Assembly: GCA_023565505.1 (NCBI GenBank)
Contig: JAIMBI010000018.1
Span: 1-64,000 of the forward strand
Direction: 5' to 3'
DNA length: 64,000 nt
Source: Actinomycetes bacterium
GTDB lineage: Bacteria; Bacillota; Sulfobacillia; Sulfobacillales; JAIMBI01
The notes beneath the pieces are model-generated. The model did not search any database. It worked only from the letters and a program-made list of their open reading frames with translations, and had not been told where the DNA came from. This document shows, piece by piece, positions 718 through 31,845 of this stretch. A program made the position numbers and the translations under genes. Numbering within the stretch: position 1 is the first letter of the stretch; every line of letters starts with the position of its first letter.

Positions 718-2028
718 ATGCGCCGGGCGTGGGACGCGCGTTCGGTGGTGCCGTACTTCCAACCCATCGTCGCCGTGGATCGGATGCAGGTCGTCGGCTA
801 CGAGGTCCTCGGCCGGCTCCGCACCCCCCACGGCGTGCTCAGCCTGGGACCGTTCTTCCAGGACAGCCGCGTACCCGCGGAGGAGAAGACACGGGTGGAT
901 CGCCGGGTCGTCCGCCAGGCGCTCGCCCTGTACGCCCGCCAGGCGTCCCCGGCGCTGTTGTTCCTCAACGTCAATCCCTCCTGGACCGAGGCGGCGCTCG
1001 ACCGCTACCGCGACGAACTCCTGGCGGAGGCGGCCCGCCTCGGGATTGCGCCGGACCGGCTGGTGATCGAGGTGACGGAGAATCCGTCCGCGGGGTCGGA
1101 CCAGGCCTTGAGGGATGCGGTCGAACGCTCGCGCGCGGCCGGCTGTCGCGTCGGTCTCGACGACGTCGGCAGCGGCTTCAGCCAGCTGGATCGCGTGGCG
1201 CTGCTCCGTCCCGACTTCCTGAAGGTGGACATGCGCATCGTCCAGCGGAGCACCCACGCCGCGTCTTACTACCACCTGCTCGAGGGGCTGTCCCTTATCG
1301 CCCAGAAACTGGGATCCGAGCTGTTGGTGGAGGGGATCGAATCCGAGGCCGAGCTGGCGGTGGCCCTTGCGGTGGGTGCCCGATATCTGCAGGGCTTCCT
1401 GTTCTCGCCGCCCCGCGAAGGGTGGGTGGAGCCGGACCGCTATGCCCCGCTGGTCCGCCGCGGCCTGTCCGCCCTCCGGCACCGGCGGCGGGAGCAGATG
1501 CGGAAGCGGGCGTGCCTCCAGGAGCAGCTGGCCGCCCGCCTGCGGCCCGAAGGCGAAAGCCTCGCGGCGGACGACGGCCGTGATCCCCGGTCGTGCGACC
1601 GGCGCTTGATCCGGTTGCTGGAGCACCTGCCTCCGTACTGTTACCGGCTGTACGTGTGCGACCGGGACGGCTACCAGGTTTCGGGCAACATCGAACGCGG
1701 ACCGGACGGCGTGACCGTCGACCGGAGCTTCGCCGGCGCCAACTGGACCACCCGCCCCTACTGCCTCCGGAACATCGAGGAGGCAGCCCGGTCGCGGGAC
1801 GGTGCCCTGTCCGACCCGTACCGCGACCACCGGACGCGGCAACCCACGCTGACGTTCACGTATGCCGTGACGGCGGACCGGTTCGTCTTCGTGGACTGCC
1901 GCCTCGAAGACCTGGACCGCGAAGGTCTTCTGCCGGACGACACCGTGAGGGCGGCCGCATCGCCCTCGCCGCCGCTCCGTCCCGACGCCGCGCTCCCGGC
2001 CGCGCGGCAGGCCGCGGAGGAGTCGTGA
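718..2028 (+). CDS. EAL-domain c-di-GMP phosphodiesterase with YkuI-like C-terminal sensor
   Basis: The N-terminal 240 residues are an EAL domain, which hydrolyses cyclic di-GMP to pGpG. The signature reads EVL at 29-31. The expected metal and catalytic positions are present: N84/N86, E118/E121, D148-D149 in the loop DDVGSGF, K169, E205 and Q225, so it is probably active. Residues about 290-405 look like the PAS-like C-terminal domain of Bacillus subtilis YkuI, a small-molecule or signal-sensing module. There is no signal peptide or membrane segment, so it should be cytosolic. The start is an ATG at 718 behind GGAGAAGG. The diguanylate cyclase gene follows 130 bases downstream, giving an opposing enzyme pair. 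The YkuI-like assignment of the tail is from remembered pattern, not a search. Confidence 0.88.
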   Translation: MRRAWDARSVVPYFQPIVAVDRMQVVGYEVLGRLRTPHGVLSLGPFFQDSRVPAEEKTRVDRRVVRQALALYARQASPALLFLNVNPSWTEAALDRYRDELLAEAARLGIAPDRLVIEVTENPSAGSDQALRDAVERSRAAGCRVGLDDVGSGFSQLDRVALLRPDFLKVDMRIVQRSTHAASYYHLLEGLSLIAQKLGSELLVEGIESEAELAVALAVGARYLQGFLFSPPREGWVEPDRYAPLVRRGLSALRHRRREQMRKRACLQEQLAARLRPEGESLAADDGRDPRSCDRRLIRLLEHLPPYCYRLYVCDRDGYQVSGNIERGPDGVTVDRSFAGANWTTRPYCLRNIEEAARSRDGALSDPYRDHRTRQPTLTFTYAVTADRFVFVDCRLEDLDREGLLPDDTVRAAASPSPPLRPDAALPAARQAAEES

Positions 2029-2160
2029 CCCCGCCCCCCGTGCGGGGAAGACCGCGGCGGGACGACCCGTCCGGGGCGCGGGCCGGCCCTCGTCGCCGCC
2101 GACCGCCGGCGCGCCTCCCGGGTCGCCGGTCCTTCGCCCGCAACCGAGGATGATCCCGAC

Positions 2161-2928
2161 GTGCCTGGGTTCGACGACGTTGAACCACCGCTCCGCCCCC
2201 GTCTCGGCCGGCTTTGGCTGAGCGAGGTGGTTGTCCTCGCCGCCCTGGTCGGGACGAGCCGCCTGCTCGCCGGATGGTGGCTGCCGCTGCCCGGCGGTCT
2301 CCTGTGGCGCCTGTCCGCCGCCGTCGGCAGCCTGGGCGCGTTGCTCCTGTTGGTGGACCATGTCCTGGTGGCCCGCTACGTGGTCGCCCCCTGGCGTCGC
2401 CGGGCGGCAGTCGACCCGCTGACGGGGCTGCTCCGCCCGGAAGCATTCTGGGCGGCCGCCTGCGCGGTCTGGGACGGCAACCGGCGCGCCCATCGGCCGT
2501 GTACCTTCGCGTTCATCGATCTCGACGACTTCAAGCGCGTCAACGACACTGCCGGGCACGCCGCCGGAGACGCGGTCCTGATGATATTCGGCGGGCTCTT
2601 GCGCGCCGTCGTCCCCCGCAGCGACGTGGTGGGCCGTCTCGGCGGCGAGGAGTTCGGCTGGCTCCTCGGCGGGGCTTCGCCCGTCTCCGCCCAGACGGCC
2701 CTGGAGCGGCTCCTGCTCCGCTGCCGCTCCGGTGCCCGAACCTTCAGCTTCTCGGCCGGTGTCGCCACCGCACCCCCGGACGCCCCCGACGTCACCCTGG
2801 GGGATCTGGTCGCGGCCGCGGAAGCCGCCTGTTATGCCGCCAAGCGAGCCGGCAAGGGCCGGATCGTCGTCGCCCCGGCCGCCCCGCAGCCCGACCCCCG
2901 TCCACCTGAAACGGCTCGTCGACGGTGA
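2161..2928 (+). CDS. membrane-anchored GGDEF diguanylate cyclase
   Basis: This 255-residue protein makes c-di-GMP from two GTP. Two hydrophobic segments (about 20-40 and 45-75) anchor it in the membrane. The GGDEF domain begins near residue 84 with DPLTGL, has FIDLDDFKRVND at 118-129 and the active-site loop GGEEF at 161-165. The allosteric product-binding site normally reads RxxD with Asp six residues before the first Gly. Here that position reads P152-R-S-D155, so the Arg is displaced and feedback inhibition may be lost. The start is GTG at 2161 behind GAGGA. No separate extracellular sensor domain is present. The upstream EAL gene suggests a locally balanced c-di-GMP switch. Confidence 0.9.
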   Translation: MPGFDDVEPPLRPRLGRLWLSEVVVLAALVGTSRLLAGWWLPLPGGLLWRLSAAVGSLGALLLLVDHVLVARYVVAPWRRRAAVDPLTGLLRPEAFWAAACAVWDGNRRAHRPCTFAFIDLDDFKRVNDTAGHAAGDAVLMIFGGLLRAVVPRSDVVGRLGGEEFGWLLGGASPVSAQTALERLLLRCRSGARTFSFSAGVATAPPDAPDVTLGDLVAAAEAACYAAKRAGKGRIVVAPAAPQPDPRPPETARRR

Positions 2929-3622
2929 GTGGGCCGGTCCGTCGCCGGCACGTCGCCGAGCGTTCGGGATGCGGAGGGCGACCGGGGCCCCGGACGCCCG
3001 GACACCGGACCCGATCCCTCGGTCTCAGAGGGGAACCAGACCGCCGACAGCCAGCGCGGACAAAAACGCATACACCGGTCCCCGTGCAAGGTCGTGATGG
3101 AGAAACGGGTTCGGTAATCGCGCAGACAACCGTAGCAGCTCTCGGTCGGCGCGCACCCGCACCGCCCTGCCAGTCTTTCCGTCGCGCGGAGGATACAGAG
3201 CTTAAGGACATCGGGCTGGCGCAGCTGGGAAACCAGGCCCGCACCGCCCGGCACGGCATCGTCCCGTAGGACACGGGGCGGAAGGGGAGGAAGGATGGAC
3301 CGAACAACCCCGGACGGTCAAACTCGCTCGCCGGGACATCGAGCAAAGGCGGCAGCCCTGAATCCGAGGCCTTCGGCCAAGCCGTATGCCCTCATACGCG
3401 CATACCCGGCCGCCTGGACGGCCCCGCTGCGTCGGTTCATTCACTGCCTTTCGACATTCGCCAACTGACGCGGACGTGCTTCGGCTCCACGGCGACCTCG
3501 CTCGCCGTCGCCGAACGCCGCCGTCCCGCCTCTTTAAGAGCTTCTTAACCGCACCACAGGTTCGTCTCACGAACGCCGGCTAACCTGGACCCGACATTGC
3601 GCCCGAGGAGGCACGGTCCTGC
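2929..3622. other. intergenic region, 694 bases, holding a helicase-gene remnant
   Basis: No intact gene was found between the GGDEF gene and asparagine synthetase. The only recognisable coding trace is the minus-strand DUF1998-like fragment listed separately at 3070-3200. The remainder is lower in GC than the neighbouring genes (for example AT-rich stretches around 3060-3120 and 3520-3560), as expected of decayed DNA. The last 20 bases hold the GAGGAGG ribosome site (3605-3611) of the next gene. Confidence 0.6.
3070..3200 (-). pseudogene. remnant of a DUF1998-type helicase C-terminus
   Basis: Read on the minus strand, 3200 to 3070 encodes LCILRATERLAGRC followed by CAPTESCYGCLRDYR and ending near TLHGDRC. 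The cysteine pattern (C-x-C...SCYGCLRDYR...HxDR) resembles the zinc-binding DUF1998 module at the C-terminus of large DEAD/DEAH helicases such as DrmB of the DISARM phage-defence system and MrfA-type repair helicases. No helicase motifs and no start are visible upstream (3200-3600), and downstream the frame degrades into low-complexity sequence, so this is a fragment of a lost gene. The family assignment is by eye from a short motif and the parent system cannot be named with certainty. Confidence 0.5.
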
Positions 3623-5512
3623 ATGTGCGCCATCGCCGGGGTCTGGGGGACAAGCCGAGGAGAATCCCGCGCCGTCGTGGGCGCGATGCTTAACCGCATG
3701 GCCCACCGGGGACCGGACGGTCACGCGCTGGTGGACGGACCCGCCGGCACCGTGGGGATGAACCGGCTGGCGGTGCTCGACCCGGCCGGCAGCCCGCCGC
3801 CCTACTTGTCGGAGGACGGATCCGTCGCCGTCGTCTTCAACGGAGAGATCTACAACCACCGCGCGCTGCGCGCCGAACTGACCGCCCGCGGCCACGTGCT
3901 CGCCGGCGCCGGCGACGGGGAGGTCCTGCCGCACCTCTACGAGGAATACGGCCTGAACCTCCTCGACCGGCTGGTCGGCATGTTCGCGCTGGCCGTCGTG
4001 GACCGGCGCCGGGGCGAGCTCCACCTCGCCCGCGACCGCCTCGGGATCAAGCCCCTCTATGTCTGGGTGCGCGGCCGGATGGTGCGGTTCGCCTCCGAGC
4101 TGACCGCCCTGGCGGCCTGGCCCGACTTCCCTCCCGCCGTGCGGGAGGACCGCCTGCCCCACTACCTCGCCTGCCGCTTCGTCCCCGGTCCGGACACCCT
4201 GCTCGCGGGGATCGAGAAGGTGGTGCCCGGCACCGTGCTCACGGTCGGTGCGGACGGCCGGATGCGCCGCCGCACCTGGTGGACGCTCCCGGATCGCCCC
4301 CTGGAACCGGTCCCGGCGCGCCGGGCCGAGGAGGAGTTCCGGGCACTCTGGTCCCGCGTGGTGCAGGACCACCTGGAGGCGGACCGCACCCTCGGCGTCT
4401 TCCTGTCCGGCGGACTCGACTCGAGCCTGCTCGCCGCAGCCCTGCCGGGGCAAGCCAGGCTGCTGCCCGCGCTGGTGCTCGGTCCGGGCGGTCACGGGGC
4501 CGCGTTCGACGAACGGGCCGGGGCGAGGGCCGTCGCCCGGGCGACCGGTCTCTCCCTGGAGACGGCGCCGTTCGACGACCCCACGCCCGAGGAGGTGCGC
4601 GCCGTCGTTCGCCACCTCGGCGAACCGCTCGGGGATCCCACCGTCCTGAGCTTCGACCGCCTCGCGCGGGCGGCCCGGGCCGCCGGCTGGACGGTGGCGC
4701 TCGCCGGCGAAGGCGCGGACGAACTCTTCTTCGGCTACCCCCATTACCGCGAGGCTTTCTGGCTCGACGGCCTCGCGCCGCTGGCGCGCCGGCTGGCCCG
4801 GACCGCGCCCGGCGCCCGCTACCTCGCCGGCCGCGGCCCGGGGGCCGGCCGGCTGAGAGCCGCACTCGCCCCGCCCCCGGCCTACTACCGCGGGGTGGGG
4901 GTTACGTTCCCCCGACCGGAGGACATCGGCGCCGCGCCGCTCGAGGCGCTGCCGTTCGACACCCGCAGCGTCGGCGTACCCGTGCACGACCGGCCCCGGC
5001 TGGAACAGATGCGCGCGTTCGACATCCGTTGGTTCCTCCCGGACGACACCCTGCTCAAGTGCGACCGGCTCGGCATGCGCTACCAGGTCGAGGTGCGCGT
5101 CCCCTACCTGGATCACCGCGTGGTGGAATGGGCGTGGCTTCGCCCGCCGCACCTCTTCCTCCGGCCTTGGGCGGCCAAGCTCCTGCCCCGCCGGGTGGCC
5201 GCGTCGCTCCTCGGTCGGGCGGCGCGCCAACCCAAGAACGGCTTTCCGACCCCGTTGGGCCGCTGGCTTACCGGCCCGCTCCGACCGTTCGCCGAAGACG
5301 TGCTGCACAGCCGGTCGTTTCGGGAACGCGGCTGGGTCGACGCCGACCGGGTCGACGCGCTCTTCGCCGGCATCCGACCCGAGGGGTCGGCCGCCGGGCG
5401 TCAGATCTGGGCTCTTTTGGCGCTCGAACTCTGGGCGCAGGAAATCGCCGACCGCGGCCGCGCCGCCGACCGCCTCCTCCCGGCACGGGAAGCCGTGACC
5501 CTCAGCCGTTGA
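3623..5512 (+). CDS. asnB: asparagine synthetase (glutamine-hydrolysing)
   Basis: This 629-residue protein has the full AsnB layout. The N-terminal glutaminase domain starts with Met-Cys, where Cys2 is the nucleophile exposed after Met removal. It carries HRGPDG, FNGEIYN and the GDGEV glutamine-binding loop. The synthetase domain begins near residue 240 with the PP-loop SGGLDSS (262-268), and EGADELFFGY marks the ATP/aspartate site further on. It converts aspartate, glutamine and ATP to asparagine. Length and domains match class-B enzymes. The start has a strong GAGGAGG 12 bases upstream. It stands alone rather than in a polysaccharide or lasso-peptide cluster, so a biosynthetic amidotransferase role other than asparagine synthesis is possible but not indicated. 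Confidence 0.93.
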   Translation: MCAIAGVWGTSRGESRAVVGAMLNRMAHRGPDGHALVDGPAGTVGMNRLAVLDPAGSPPPYLSEDGSVAVVFNGEIYNHRALRAELTARGHVLAGAGDGEVLPHLYEEYGLNLLDRLVGMFALAVVDRRRGELHLARDRLGIKPLYVWVRGRMVRFASELTALAAWPDFPPAVREDRLPHYLACRFVPGPDTLLAGIEKVVPGTVLTVGADGRMRRRTWWTLPDRPLEPVPARRAEEEFRALWSRVVQDHLEADRTLGVFLSGGLDSSLLAAALPGQARLLPALVLGPGGHGAAFDERAGARAVARATGLSLETAPFDDPTPEEVRAVVRHLGEPLGDPTVLSFDRLARAARAAGWTVALAGEGADELFFGYPHYREAFWLDGLAPLARRLARTAPGARYLAGRGPGAGRLRAALAPPPAYYRGVGVTFPRPEDIGAAPLEALPFDTRSVGVPVHDRPRLEQMRAFDIRWFLPDDTLLKCDRLGMRYQVEVRVPYLDHRVVEWAWLRPPHLFLRPWAAKLLPRRVAASLLGRAARQPKNGFPTPLGRWLTGPLRPFAEDVLHSRSFRERGWVDADRVDALFAGIRPEGSAAGRQIWALLALELWAQEIADRGRAADRLLPAREAVTLSR

Positions 5513-8589: not shown

Positions 8590-10185
8590 TCAGCCGAGCC
8601 GCTCGACGAACGCTGTGGCGTCCACGGATCCCCATCCGGTCACCGCATCCCACCCCGGGCCGCACTGGTATCCCGGGATGCCGTCGATGCGGTTGGTGCC
8701 CTCCAGGATGTCGTAGAACACGGGACTGCCTCCGAGCGGGTAGAGCCGCGGCCCCAGCAGGCCCAGCGGCCCGAGGCCGCGCGCGGCCCGCGCCTGGTTG
8801 GCGAGGGCGACCAGGGCCGCCCACATCGGCGCGCTGGCCGACGTCCCCCCGATGACCCCCGGCTCGCCTTGGAACACGATGGCCACCCCGGTGTCGGGAT
8901 CGGCGACCAAGGCCCCGTCGGGCACGCCCCGGCCGGGCCGGCCCTCCGGGTTGGCCGGCACCTGGGCCTTCCCCTGCCACGGGAGCGGGGGGAAGACGAG
9001 GCTCACGCCGCCGCCGGAGGCGCCGTTGTCGTTGGTGTCGCTCCATCCCGTCTCGCTCGCGCGGCTCCCGTCCGGCGCCAGCCGGAGCGTGGTGCCGCCC
9101 ACCGCCCAGACGTGCGGCAGGCTGGCGGGAGCGTCCACGTGCGGGAACGGCCAGGCGATGCCCCGGACCCCGTAGCTGCCCATGTCCCCGGAGGCGGCCA
9201 GCACCGAGATGCCGCGGGCGGCGGCCCGCTGCGCGGCGAGATCCCAGGCCCACAGCGCCCGCCGCGGGATGCGGGTCTCCGCGTCCCCGTAGGAGATCGA
9301 GACCACGGAGGGCCGATGCACCTCGTCGGTGACCACGGCCTCCAGGGCGAGCAGCATCGCCCGGGCCCAGGACGCGTCGTTGCTCCCCGGATTCGCCTCG
9401 TAGACCACCAGGTTGGCCCCCGGCGCCAGCGCACCCGCCCACTCCACGTCCAGGGTGCACTCCACGTCGAGCGCCTGCGTCCCGCCGCTGTTGGGCGTCC
9501 CGTCCACGGACACGAAGCCGACCGGCCGTACGGGCACGCCGTGCGCCCGCCAGAACGCCTCCACGTCCTGCGCGGCAAAGCCGCTGCCGAACTCCAGGAG
9601 CGCGACGGTCTGCCCCGATCCGTCCCACTGCCCGGGGAACCGGTACGCGGTCCGGAGATCGCGGGGGAAGTACCCCTGGCCCCCGTTGGGCAGATCCGCC
9701 TCCGCGCGCGGCCAGCGGTGCGCCGGCCGGGCACCCGCCCGGTTCTCGAGACCCACGATGGCCCCGACGGCGTCGAGGGCCCACACGGGCACCTGCGGTT
9801 CCTCCCGGTTGAGGTAGACGTGCCGGCCCTCGACCTGCCGTTCCGCGAACGTGCACCGGAGCGCGGCGGTCACGCGGGCCACCGGCCCGCTGAAGTCGAG
9901 GTAGAGACCCTCGGCCCGCGGCGGGGCGACCTCGAGCCCGTGATCCTCCAGATACGACGCCAGCCGCACCACGACGGCGGGGTCCGGGCGGAACAGGCGG
10001 TGGAGTTCCGCCGCCGAGGCCACCGGGGCCGCCTCGGGGTCCCTGAGGCGGGCCCGGATCTCCTCCTCCCGCTCCGGGCGGAAGACCACCGTCGCCCGGA
10101 TCACCCGCTCCGGCGCCGCCGTCCGCCATCCATCCTCTGCCAGCCACTGGGTCAGCAGGTGCCCGCGCACCACTTCCGTCCGCAT
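8590..10185 (-). CDS. sedolisin (S53) serine-carboxyl peptidase, kumamolisin-like
   Basis: This 531-residue protein matches a kumamolisin-type proenzyme. The N-terminal about 170 residues form the Pro-kumamolisin activation domain and the rest a subtilisin-fold catalytic domain. The catalytic Glu and Asp lie in DVECTLDVEW near 240, the oxyanion Asp in AASGDMGSYG near 333, and the nucleophile in GGTSASAP near 449. Sedolisins digest proteins at acid pH, often at high temperature, which fits an acidophile or thermophile. No signal peptide is visible at the N-terminus (MRTEVVRGHLL), as is also true of several family members that are nevertheless exported. Start: ATG at 10185, seven bases after GGAGG. 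Confidence 0.93.
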   Translation of the reverse strand: MRTEVVRGHLLTQWLAEDGWRTAAPERVIRATVVFRPEREEEIRARLRDPEAAPVASAAELHRLFRPDPAVVVRLASYLEDHGLEVAPPRAEGLYLDFSGPVARVTAALRCTFAERQVEGRHVYLNREEPQVPVWALDAVGAIVGLENRAGARPAHRWPRAEADLPNGGQGYFPRDLRTAYRFPGQWDGSGQTVALLEFGSGFAAQDVEAFWRAHGVPVRPVGFVSVDGTPNSGGTQALDVECTLDVEWAGALAPGANLVVYEANPGSNDASWARAMLLALEAVVTDEVHRPSVVSISYGDAETRIPRRALWAWDLAAQRAAARGISVLAASGDMGSYGVRGIAWPFPHVDAPASLPHVWAVGGTTLRLAPDGSRASETGWSDTNDNGASGGGVSLVFPPLPWQGKAQVPANPEGRPGRGVPDGALVADPDTGVAIVFQGEPGVIGGTSASAPMWAALVALANQARAARGLGPLGLLGPRLYPLGGSPVFYDILEGTNRIDGIPGYQCGPGWDAVTGWGSVDATAFVERLG

Positions 10186-30742: not shown

Positions 30743-31845
30743 TCATCTGGCCATCGCCAGGAGATTACGGGCCGCGTTCACGTCCCGGTCATGATGCGCG
30801 CCGCAGACCGGGCAGTCCCACGCCCGCACGTCCAAGGCCAGCCGCTCCCGCACATGCCCGCAGCACGAGCACATCTTACTGCTCGGGAAGTACCGGTTCG
30901 CCACGAGCAGTTGGCTCCCGTACCACGTGCACTTGTAGGCCAGCATCCGCCGGAACTCGTGCCAGCCCATGTCCGCGATGTGCCGCGCGAGCGTCGGGCT
31001 CTTCAGCAACCCGCTCACGTTCAGATCCTCCACCACGATCGCCCGCTTGGTTTTCGCCAGGCGCGTGGTGATCTGGTGCAGGAAGTCCCGCCGGATGTGG
31101 CGGACGCGCCGATGCAGCCGCGCCAGCCGCAGGGCCGACTTCCGCCGGTTCCGCGATCCCGTCCGCTTCCGGCTGTGCCGCCGCTGACGGCGGCGCAGAA
31201 CCCGCAGCACCCGCCGCAACGGCCTGGGCGCCTCGATCGTCGCCACCGTGCCGTCGTCCCCGGCCACTGTGGCGAAGTGGTCGATCCCCAGGTCGACCCC
31301 TGCCGCCGGCCCCTGAACGGGCATGGGATCCGGCAGTTCCCTCTCCACCGTCAGACTCACAGACCAGCGGTCGGCTTCCCGGCTCACCGTCGCCGACCGG
31401 ATGCGGCCCTGGACCCGCGGCACTTCCTTGAGCCGGATGAGGCCCAGCCGGGGAAGCTGCACCGCCCGCTCCCGCACCCGGATCGAGCCCGTCAGCCGGA
31501 ACCGGTCGTCCCGCCCTTTCTTCCGAAACCGGGGAAAGCCCACCTTCCGGCCTTCCTTCCGGTCCCGGAAGAAGTTCCGGAAGGCCCGGTCCAGGTCCCG
31601 CAGCGCCTCCTGCGGGGCACACTTGGACACCTCATACAGCCAGGGATACTCCGTCTTCTTTAGACGGTTCAGCTCCCGATGCTGCTCGATGCGTTGGTGG
31701 TCTTCCCTGTCCGCCGGTACAGTTCGATGCGCCGGGCCAGTCCCCAGTTGTAGGCGAACCGGGCGGCGCCCGCGTGCTGGGCCAGTAGGATGCGCTGCTG
31801 GCCATTGGGGTCGAGCTCGTAGCGATAGGCACGATTAACCTTCAC
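30743..31845 (-). pseudogene. tnpB: tnpB (RNA-guided nuclease of IS607), frameshifted
   Basis: Translation from GTG at 31845 gives KVNRAYRYELDPNGQQRILL and continues to TGKTTNA near 31691, where the frame is lost. Dropping one base recovers IEQHRELNRLKKTEYPWLYE in the next frame, which runs on to the TGA at 30743. A single-base deletion in an Ala codon therefore splits the gene. The second part keeps the RuvC residues (Asp in VDLGIDHF, Glu in VVEDLNVSG, Asp in DRDVNAARN) and the four-Cys zinc finger (CSCC and CPVC). The start overlaps the tnpA stop by 11 bases. The intact protein would be about 367 residues, normal for IS607 TnpB. Confidence 0.85.

Follow-up and report, generated by a model that had tools for sequence, protein, structure and literature searches.

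What kind of gene left the short peptide with its C-x-C and SCYGCLRDYR motifs that can be read on the minus strand between a gene of c-di-GMP turnover and asnB, and does it mark a lost phage-defence locus? The stretch in question (2929-3622) is intergenic, lies between a GGDEF gene on one side and asnB on the other, and belongs to a window of 64,000 nucleotides, i.e., the whole stretch of DNA that was analysed. It contains a piece of a helicase gene, which quite probably is a functionless pseudogene: an ancestor would have possessed a Druantia III-like partner gene and a DruE-like helicase at this position, both lost by deletion and frameshift.

Results

Position and sequence of the remnant

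The relic spans 3287-3025 on the minus strand and corresponds to roughly the final 85 codons of a DruE-like helicase of the YprA family, comprising the MZB/DUF1998 module and the C-terminus. The region is organized as follows:

718-2028, plus strand: protein with EAL and YkuI_C domains (c-di-GMP), flank, outside the relic
2161-2928, plus strand: GGDEF protein (c-di-GMP), flank on the 3' side of the relic
3025-3111, minus strand: DruE-like helicase remnant, second frame, C-terminal end NPFLHHDLARGPVYAFLSALAVGGLVPL and stop codon; the frames meet near 3111
3111-3287, minus strand: DruE-like helicase remnant, first frame, MZB/DUF1998 zinc-binding module PLPPRVLRDDAVPGGAGLV...CGC...SCYGCLRDYR, four cysteines kept
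3288-3622, no strand: stretch between remnant and asnB, GC 0.65 (for 3282-3622), without significant similarity to DruE, the partner or other ORFs of homologous loci
3623-5512, plus strand: asnB, asparagine synthase with glutamine amidotransferase domain, flank on the 5' side of the relic

The first frame (3287-3111) reads PLPPRVLRDDAVPGGAGLVSQL...GRCGCAPTESCYGCLRDYR and ends with ...SCYGCLRDYR, and the second frame (3111-3028) reads NPFLHHDLARGPVYAFLSAL..., which is the continuation expected from intact relatives, followed by the stop codon at 3025. In these relatives the two parts form a single continuous C-terminus (e.g., ...VPGGAGLVSQL...GHCGCDDNSSCYGCLRTYDNQFIHHELSRGPVFESL in genome G002 of the same family), such that one broken gene explains both frames. 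Aligned at the nucleotide level, the relic and the G002 helicase agree by 85% across 33 bases of the first part and by 69% across a further 84 bases that span the meeting point of the frames. The reading frame is not intact, as the two frames meet near 3111 and an in-frame stop near 3318 closes the frame upstream. An extension of the relic beyond 3287 was rejected: one single-sequence alignment reached 3392, passing through a stop, and the upstream part alone scored -5.4 bits, below the best shuffles (-1.9; among 256 of 500 shuffles listed).

The minus-strand peptide was already noticed in the preliminary description, and the homologous stretch proved to be longer than noted there, extending from about 3287 to the stop at 3025. 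The lower GC reported at the same time was found as well, amounting to 0.67 for 3028-3281, which is below most flanking windows. GC at third positions is 0.74 and 0.64 in the two parts of the relic versus 0.85-0.92 in four neighbour genes, and these low values fit foreign origin, drift, or both. Across 60 other genomes, the DNA of 2929-3622 is not conserved and yields short matches only (the best of 30 bases, E 4e-4), one of which (33 bases) corresponds to the intact G002 helicase; a noncoding sequence shared with genomes that never possessed the helicase, considered beforehand as an argument against a gene remnant, was thus not encountered. These features bear on the question whether the MZB piece might have been retained as a short gene that still encodes a functional small zinc protein. 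The first frame is indeed open over 161 codons and retains the four cysteines, but long open frames come by chance at such GC, the end of the family lies in another frame, and neither the third-position GC nor the absence of conservation in the 60 genomes fits a maintained gene, which makes this explanation very improbable. That no promoter-like site was seen says little here, as none would be expected either.

Strength of the match

A profile was built from 17 sequences of relatives (full-length or C-terminal), with the relic left out, and was compared with the 1074 six-frame segments of the window. The first part of the relic was the only significant match (E 4.3e-18), followed by its second part (E 0.14), one other segment (E 9.3), and no more. 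A second profile of ten relatives, again with the relic left out, gave E 7.5e-23 and 0.024 for the first and second parts, respectively. The Pfam MZB model reaches 26.1 bits at the relic against a cut-off of 24.2, covering positions 32-80 of 80, and this is the sole MZB match of the genome. The profile search proposed in the preliminary description therefore gave a significant result with both MZB and the DruE profile (E 4e-18), and its reading of the sequence as the decayed end of a DUF1998 helicase, without an intact gene around it and situated between the c-di-GMP genes and asnB, was borne out.

Concerning the 33 columns that are at least 90% conserved in 82 rows of relatives (some of them identical to each other), 30 are kept by the relic with the better join and 29 with another join; when each of the 82 rows was left out in turn, two had lost three conserved columns and two had lost four, which was the maximum. 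The GTG-start ORF at 2832-3254 matched no family up to E 1 in a plain Pfam scan and none up to E 10 in an NCBIfam scan, probably because it lacks the first residues of the module and carries an out-of-frame tail; the other fragment ORFs were equally without Pfam and NCBIfam matches. In PADLOC the same ORF, one of three fragment ORFs and the one that matched, hit DruE1 at an E of only 7e-4, and DruE4, DruE2, and DruE3 more weakly. The homology of the relic to helicases is far beyond chance.

Affiliation to DruE

Full-length relatives (n = 12) have a length of 1510-1670 aa. In a BLAST comparison with these 12, the relic shares 57-58% identity with those of three genomes of the same order or family (L159, L161, and L158 in G020, G035, and G002, respectively), and 45-58% with the long intact frames found in one genome of the same family and four of the same order. 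Three intact relatives were scanned with PADLOC (L056, L058, L158), and all three were matched as DruE (E 4e-141, 3e-178, and 2e-162, respectively). L056 contains DEAD, Helicase_C, and MZB domains in one gene. In all 12 relatives compared, no more than about 20 residues follow the MZB module, and a C-terminal nuclease is therefore missing; in helicases of the Druantia III-like branch such a nuclease is most often absent, according to the accessible text of PMC12458937.

The preliminary description had likened the peptide to DrmB of DISARM and to MrfA, and a remnant of DISARM or of a stand-alone MrfA/YprA repair helicase would be conceivable in that the same DUF1998/MZB module is also found in DrmB and MrfA (PMC12458937, the text accessible). 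However, the family turned out to be another one, DruE: the PADLOC matches of the fragment are DruE1-4 only, and DrmB was not among its PADLOC or NCBIfam matches. The intact relatives score as DruE, with DrmA models far weaker and no DrmB among the 25 matches listed per protein. In DISARM, the DUF1998 module is located in a separate gene and not fused to the helicase, as described in the available part of PMC12458937; the module is common to DrmB and the relic, but in the intact relatives (L056) MZB is fused to the helicase core. Such an origin is accordingly far-fetched. The relic is thus a remnant of a Druantia III-like DruE, and DISARM is not supported.

Intact relatives and their partner genes

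Directly upstream of the helicase, a homologous partner gene was found in ten of the 13 loci looked at, whereas other genes occupy this position in L062 and L163, and the L061 locus begins where its contig does. The partner genes of L056, L057, L058, L059 (short), and L060 form a first group of mutual homologues, which is matched by the partners in L158, L161, and L164 and by shorter pieces in L159 and L160. The following partner genes, encoding 646-1059 aa, are situated directly upstream of DruE-like helicases:

L056, 14178-16709
L057, 14564-16888
L058, 5145-7427
L060, 2582-4522
L158, 14460-17639
L161, 2876-6013
L164, 4705-7119

No PADLOC model matched the six partners scanned (L056, L058, and L060 at E 0.01; L158, L161, and L164 at E 1), and no NCBIfam model matched those of L158 and L164 at E 0.1. 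In some partners, inspection by eye shows a hydrophobic N-terminus along with pairs of cysteines close to the C-terminal end. L059 and L060 appear, judging by the translations, to be adjacent to type III CRISPR-like genes. A Rhodococcus plasmid locus was rejected as a source of DruH for the partner comparison, as no codirectional gene is located directly upstream of its helicase.

Distribution of the helicase

With a C-terminus query, 32 of the 299 genomes of the phylum (own genome included) gave a match at E <=0.01; an alignment query that included the relic matched 18 of 121 genomes at E 0.001, again counting its own. Of the six other genomes in the family, one possesses the helicase (G002, with an open frame of 1546 codons), and G001 and G003-G006 showed no match with the alignment query at E 0.001. 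Within the same order, frames of 1514-1591 codons occur in G012, G017, G020, and G035, and shorter ones in G040 (506 codons) and G007 (214 codons). In G040, G369, and G058, the short frame apparently begins at the end of a contig. The G007 genome consists of a single contig and its frame is not at the contig end; its 212-aa ORF represents the last ~160 profile positions (E 6e-55) and is located as follows:

L162, 9266-9904 (G007:C1, about 1760266-1760904): C-terminal DruE-like piece, MZB E 2e-10

This piece, a second relic comparable to the one described here, is adjoined by an AAA_5 ATPase gene (L162, 10186-11928), and no other helicase piece was found within 20 kb at the locus. Truncation to the helicase C-terminus is therefore seen in two genomes of the order.

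In a genome_contigs search, the best 80 of 263 confirmed relatives belong to many phyla. The closest match there (tblastn) is not from the relic's own lineage, but from a Myxococcota MAG (L074, 64% over the best segment). In a tree of the short C-terminus (83 rows, 77 of them different) the relic takes no firm placement and sits on a long branch. Among plasmid records, the fragment ORF gave one weak match, to an archaeal plasmid (E 0.9); a full DruE query matched 119 records at E 1e-20, in no case over at least 80% of its length.

We tentatively suggest that the relic might stem from a widespread two-gene Druantia III-like system, the partner of which would not be DruH and corresponds to no PADLOC model, and that this system may have been lost repeatedly in the order, with the 3' end of the helicase surviving in the own genome and in G007.

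The rest of the genome and the surroundings of the relic

When the own genome was searched with whole-length DruE, nothing was found apart from the relic itself and, on contig C19, a weak match to the helicase core (E 1.5e-6 and 2.6e-5); the DEAD/DEAH and Helicase_C core is absent at the relic locus with the same type of query. A search of the own genome with one same-family partner, run without a positive control, was empty, so that a system is not confirmed by a second gene. A trace of the partner gene is likewise absent from the stretches beside the relic, and the flanks towards asnB and towards the GGDEF gene matched nothing better than E 0.2 among 10130 six-frame segments of homologous loci. 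Since the assembly is in a draft state (49 contigs, 6.62% contamination), the frameshift alone could be a sequence error; a truncation inside a contig is harder to explain in this way.

Nine neighbouring proteins had no PADLOC match at E 1e-5. A tenth one, 27 kb off, matches Cas12f-type PADLOC models because it is a TnpB-like transposon protein:

Window 30743-31630: IS605 OrfB / Cas12f-like (TnpB-type) protein, OrfB_IS605 E 1e-29, TNB domain E 3e-24

The loss of a whole phage-defence island, as envisaged in the preliminary description, is no more than plausible, with the end of one gene left and nine neighbours free of PADLOC matches. Rfam gave nothing up to E 1 on 2850-3750, promoter and terminator patterns were not found at the relic, repeats in 2600-4200 were limited to short pairs, none of them convincing as the border of an element, and the window contains no tRNA genes. 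Elsewhere in the window, the gene at 8590-10185 encodes a Pro-kumamolisin activation domain and a subtilase-like domain; its product is presumably an acid-active S53-type peptidase.

The same site in relatives

Relatives of asnB (41-51% identity) were compared at 11 loci (L042-L052) with flanks of about 1.5 kb. A GGDEF gene is found in the asnB flank in one of them (L043 in G016), 140 bases upstream of asnB and with no helicase in between; in G028, a GGDEF gene is located further up from asnB, with other genes between. EAL and GGDEF are encoded by two separate neighbour genes here (window 718-2928), and relatives of the EAL-YkuI_C protein at E 1e-40 exist in only two of the 60 other genomes searched. 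No relative was seen to combine the same gene order with an intact helicase, and no genome is near enough to show the site before the loss; comparison thus gives no proof that the helicase was lost here.

The arrangement in L043, together with the fact that one gene end only remains and the partner has left no trace, would also agree with a helicase fragment that was put here by illegitimate recombination or transposition and then decayed, a complete gene never having existed at the site. We regard this as unlikely: the natural gene end is present with its own stop codon, as expected from a deletion on the 5' side. The second truncated C-terminal piece, in G007, also speaks against it to some degree, but demonstrates the recurrence of truncation and not its manner.

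Discussion

According to the preferred explanation, decay of a gene that was once complete at the site, the ancestor would have carried a minus-strand, Druantia III-like locus of two genes, flanked by the GGDEF gene and asnB. Its first gene would have been the partner, placed as druH is, and its second a DruE-like helicase about 1550 aa long, the MZB zinc module forming its end. The partner and all of the helicase except the last ~85 codons may have been taken by a deletion that entered from the 5' side, sparing the natural gene end, and a frameshift, arising either before or after this deletion, may have broken the helicase piece that remained. We infer that helicase and partner were once complete here and were then removed by deletion. 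The intact ancestral protein would have been an SF2 helicase that worked with its partner against phage DNA and had its MZB module beside the DNA channel; this antiphage role is assumed by analogy to characterised Druantia III systems, and the relic itself is incapable of any such activity.

This case shows that a very short motif noticed by eye can be the genuine vestige of a defence gene since lost; what it places in the past of this lineage is a helicase of the Druantia III-like type and not DISARM. Defence systems are well known to turn over, so that the relic in itself adds little and constitutes an ordinary gene fossil; the intact relatives with their unnamed partner gene are the more useful lead. 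In the accessible portion of the literature on decayed Druantia loci, no work about such relics was found.

Compared with DruE of Druantia III and III-like systems (YprA-family SF2 helicases), the relic is alike in the MZB/DUF1998 sequence, in the cysteines, and in the PGGAGLV and SCYGCL motifs, whereas it differs in that only the last ~85 codons remain, frameshifted and with neither helicase core nor partner. Druantia III of Mycolicibacterium smegmatis consists of DruH (1132 aa) and DruE (1667 aa), encoded by overlapping genes, and both genes are essential, with the helicase, DEAD-box, and DUF1998 parts of the system required (PMC13316683, as far as its text is accessible). In contrast to that system, the partners of six of the relic's relatives match no PADLOC model. 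The layout in G002 of the same family is nevertheless similar, with a partner of 1059 aa followed by a DruE-like protein of 1546 aa, which overlap as longest ORFs, and the requirements described for the genes and domains of Druantia III may, with the exception of the nuclease part, have applied to the ancestor of the relic as well.
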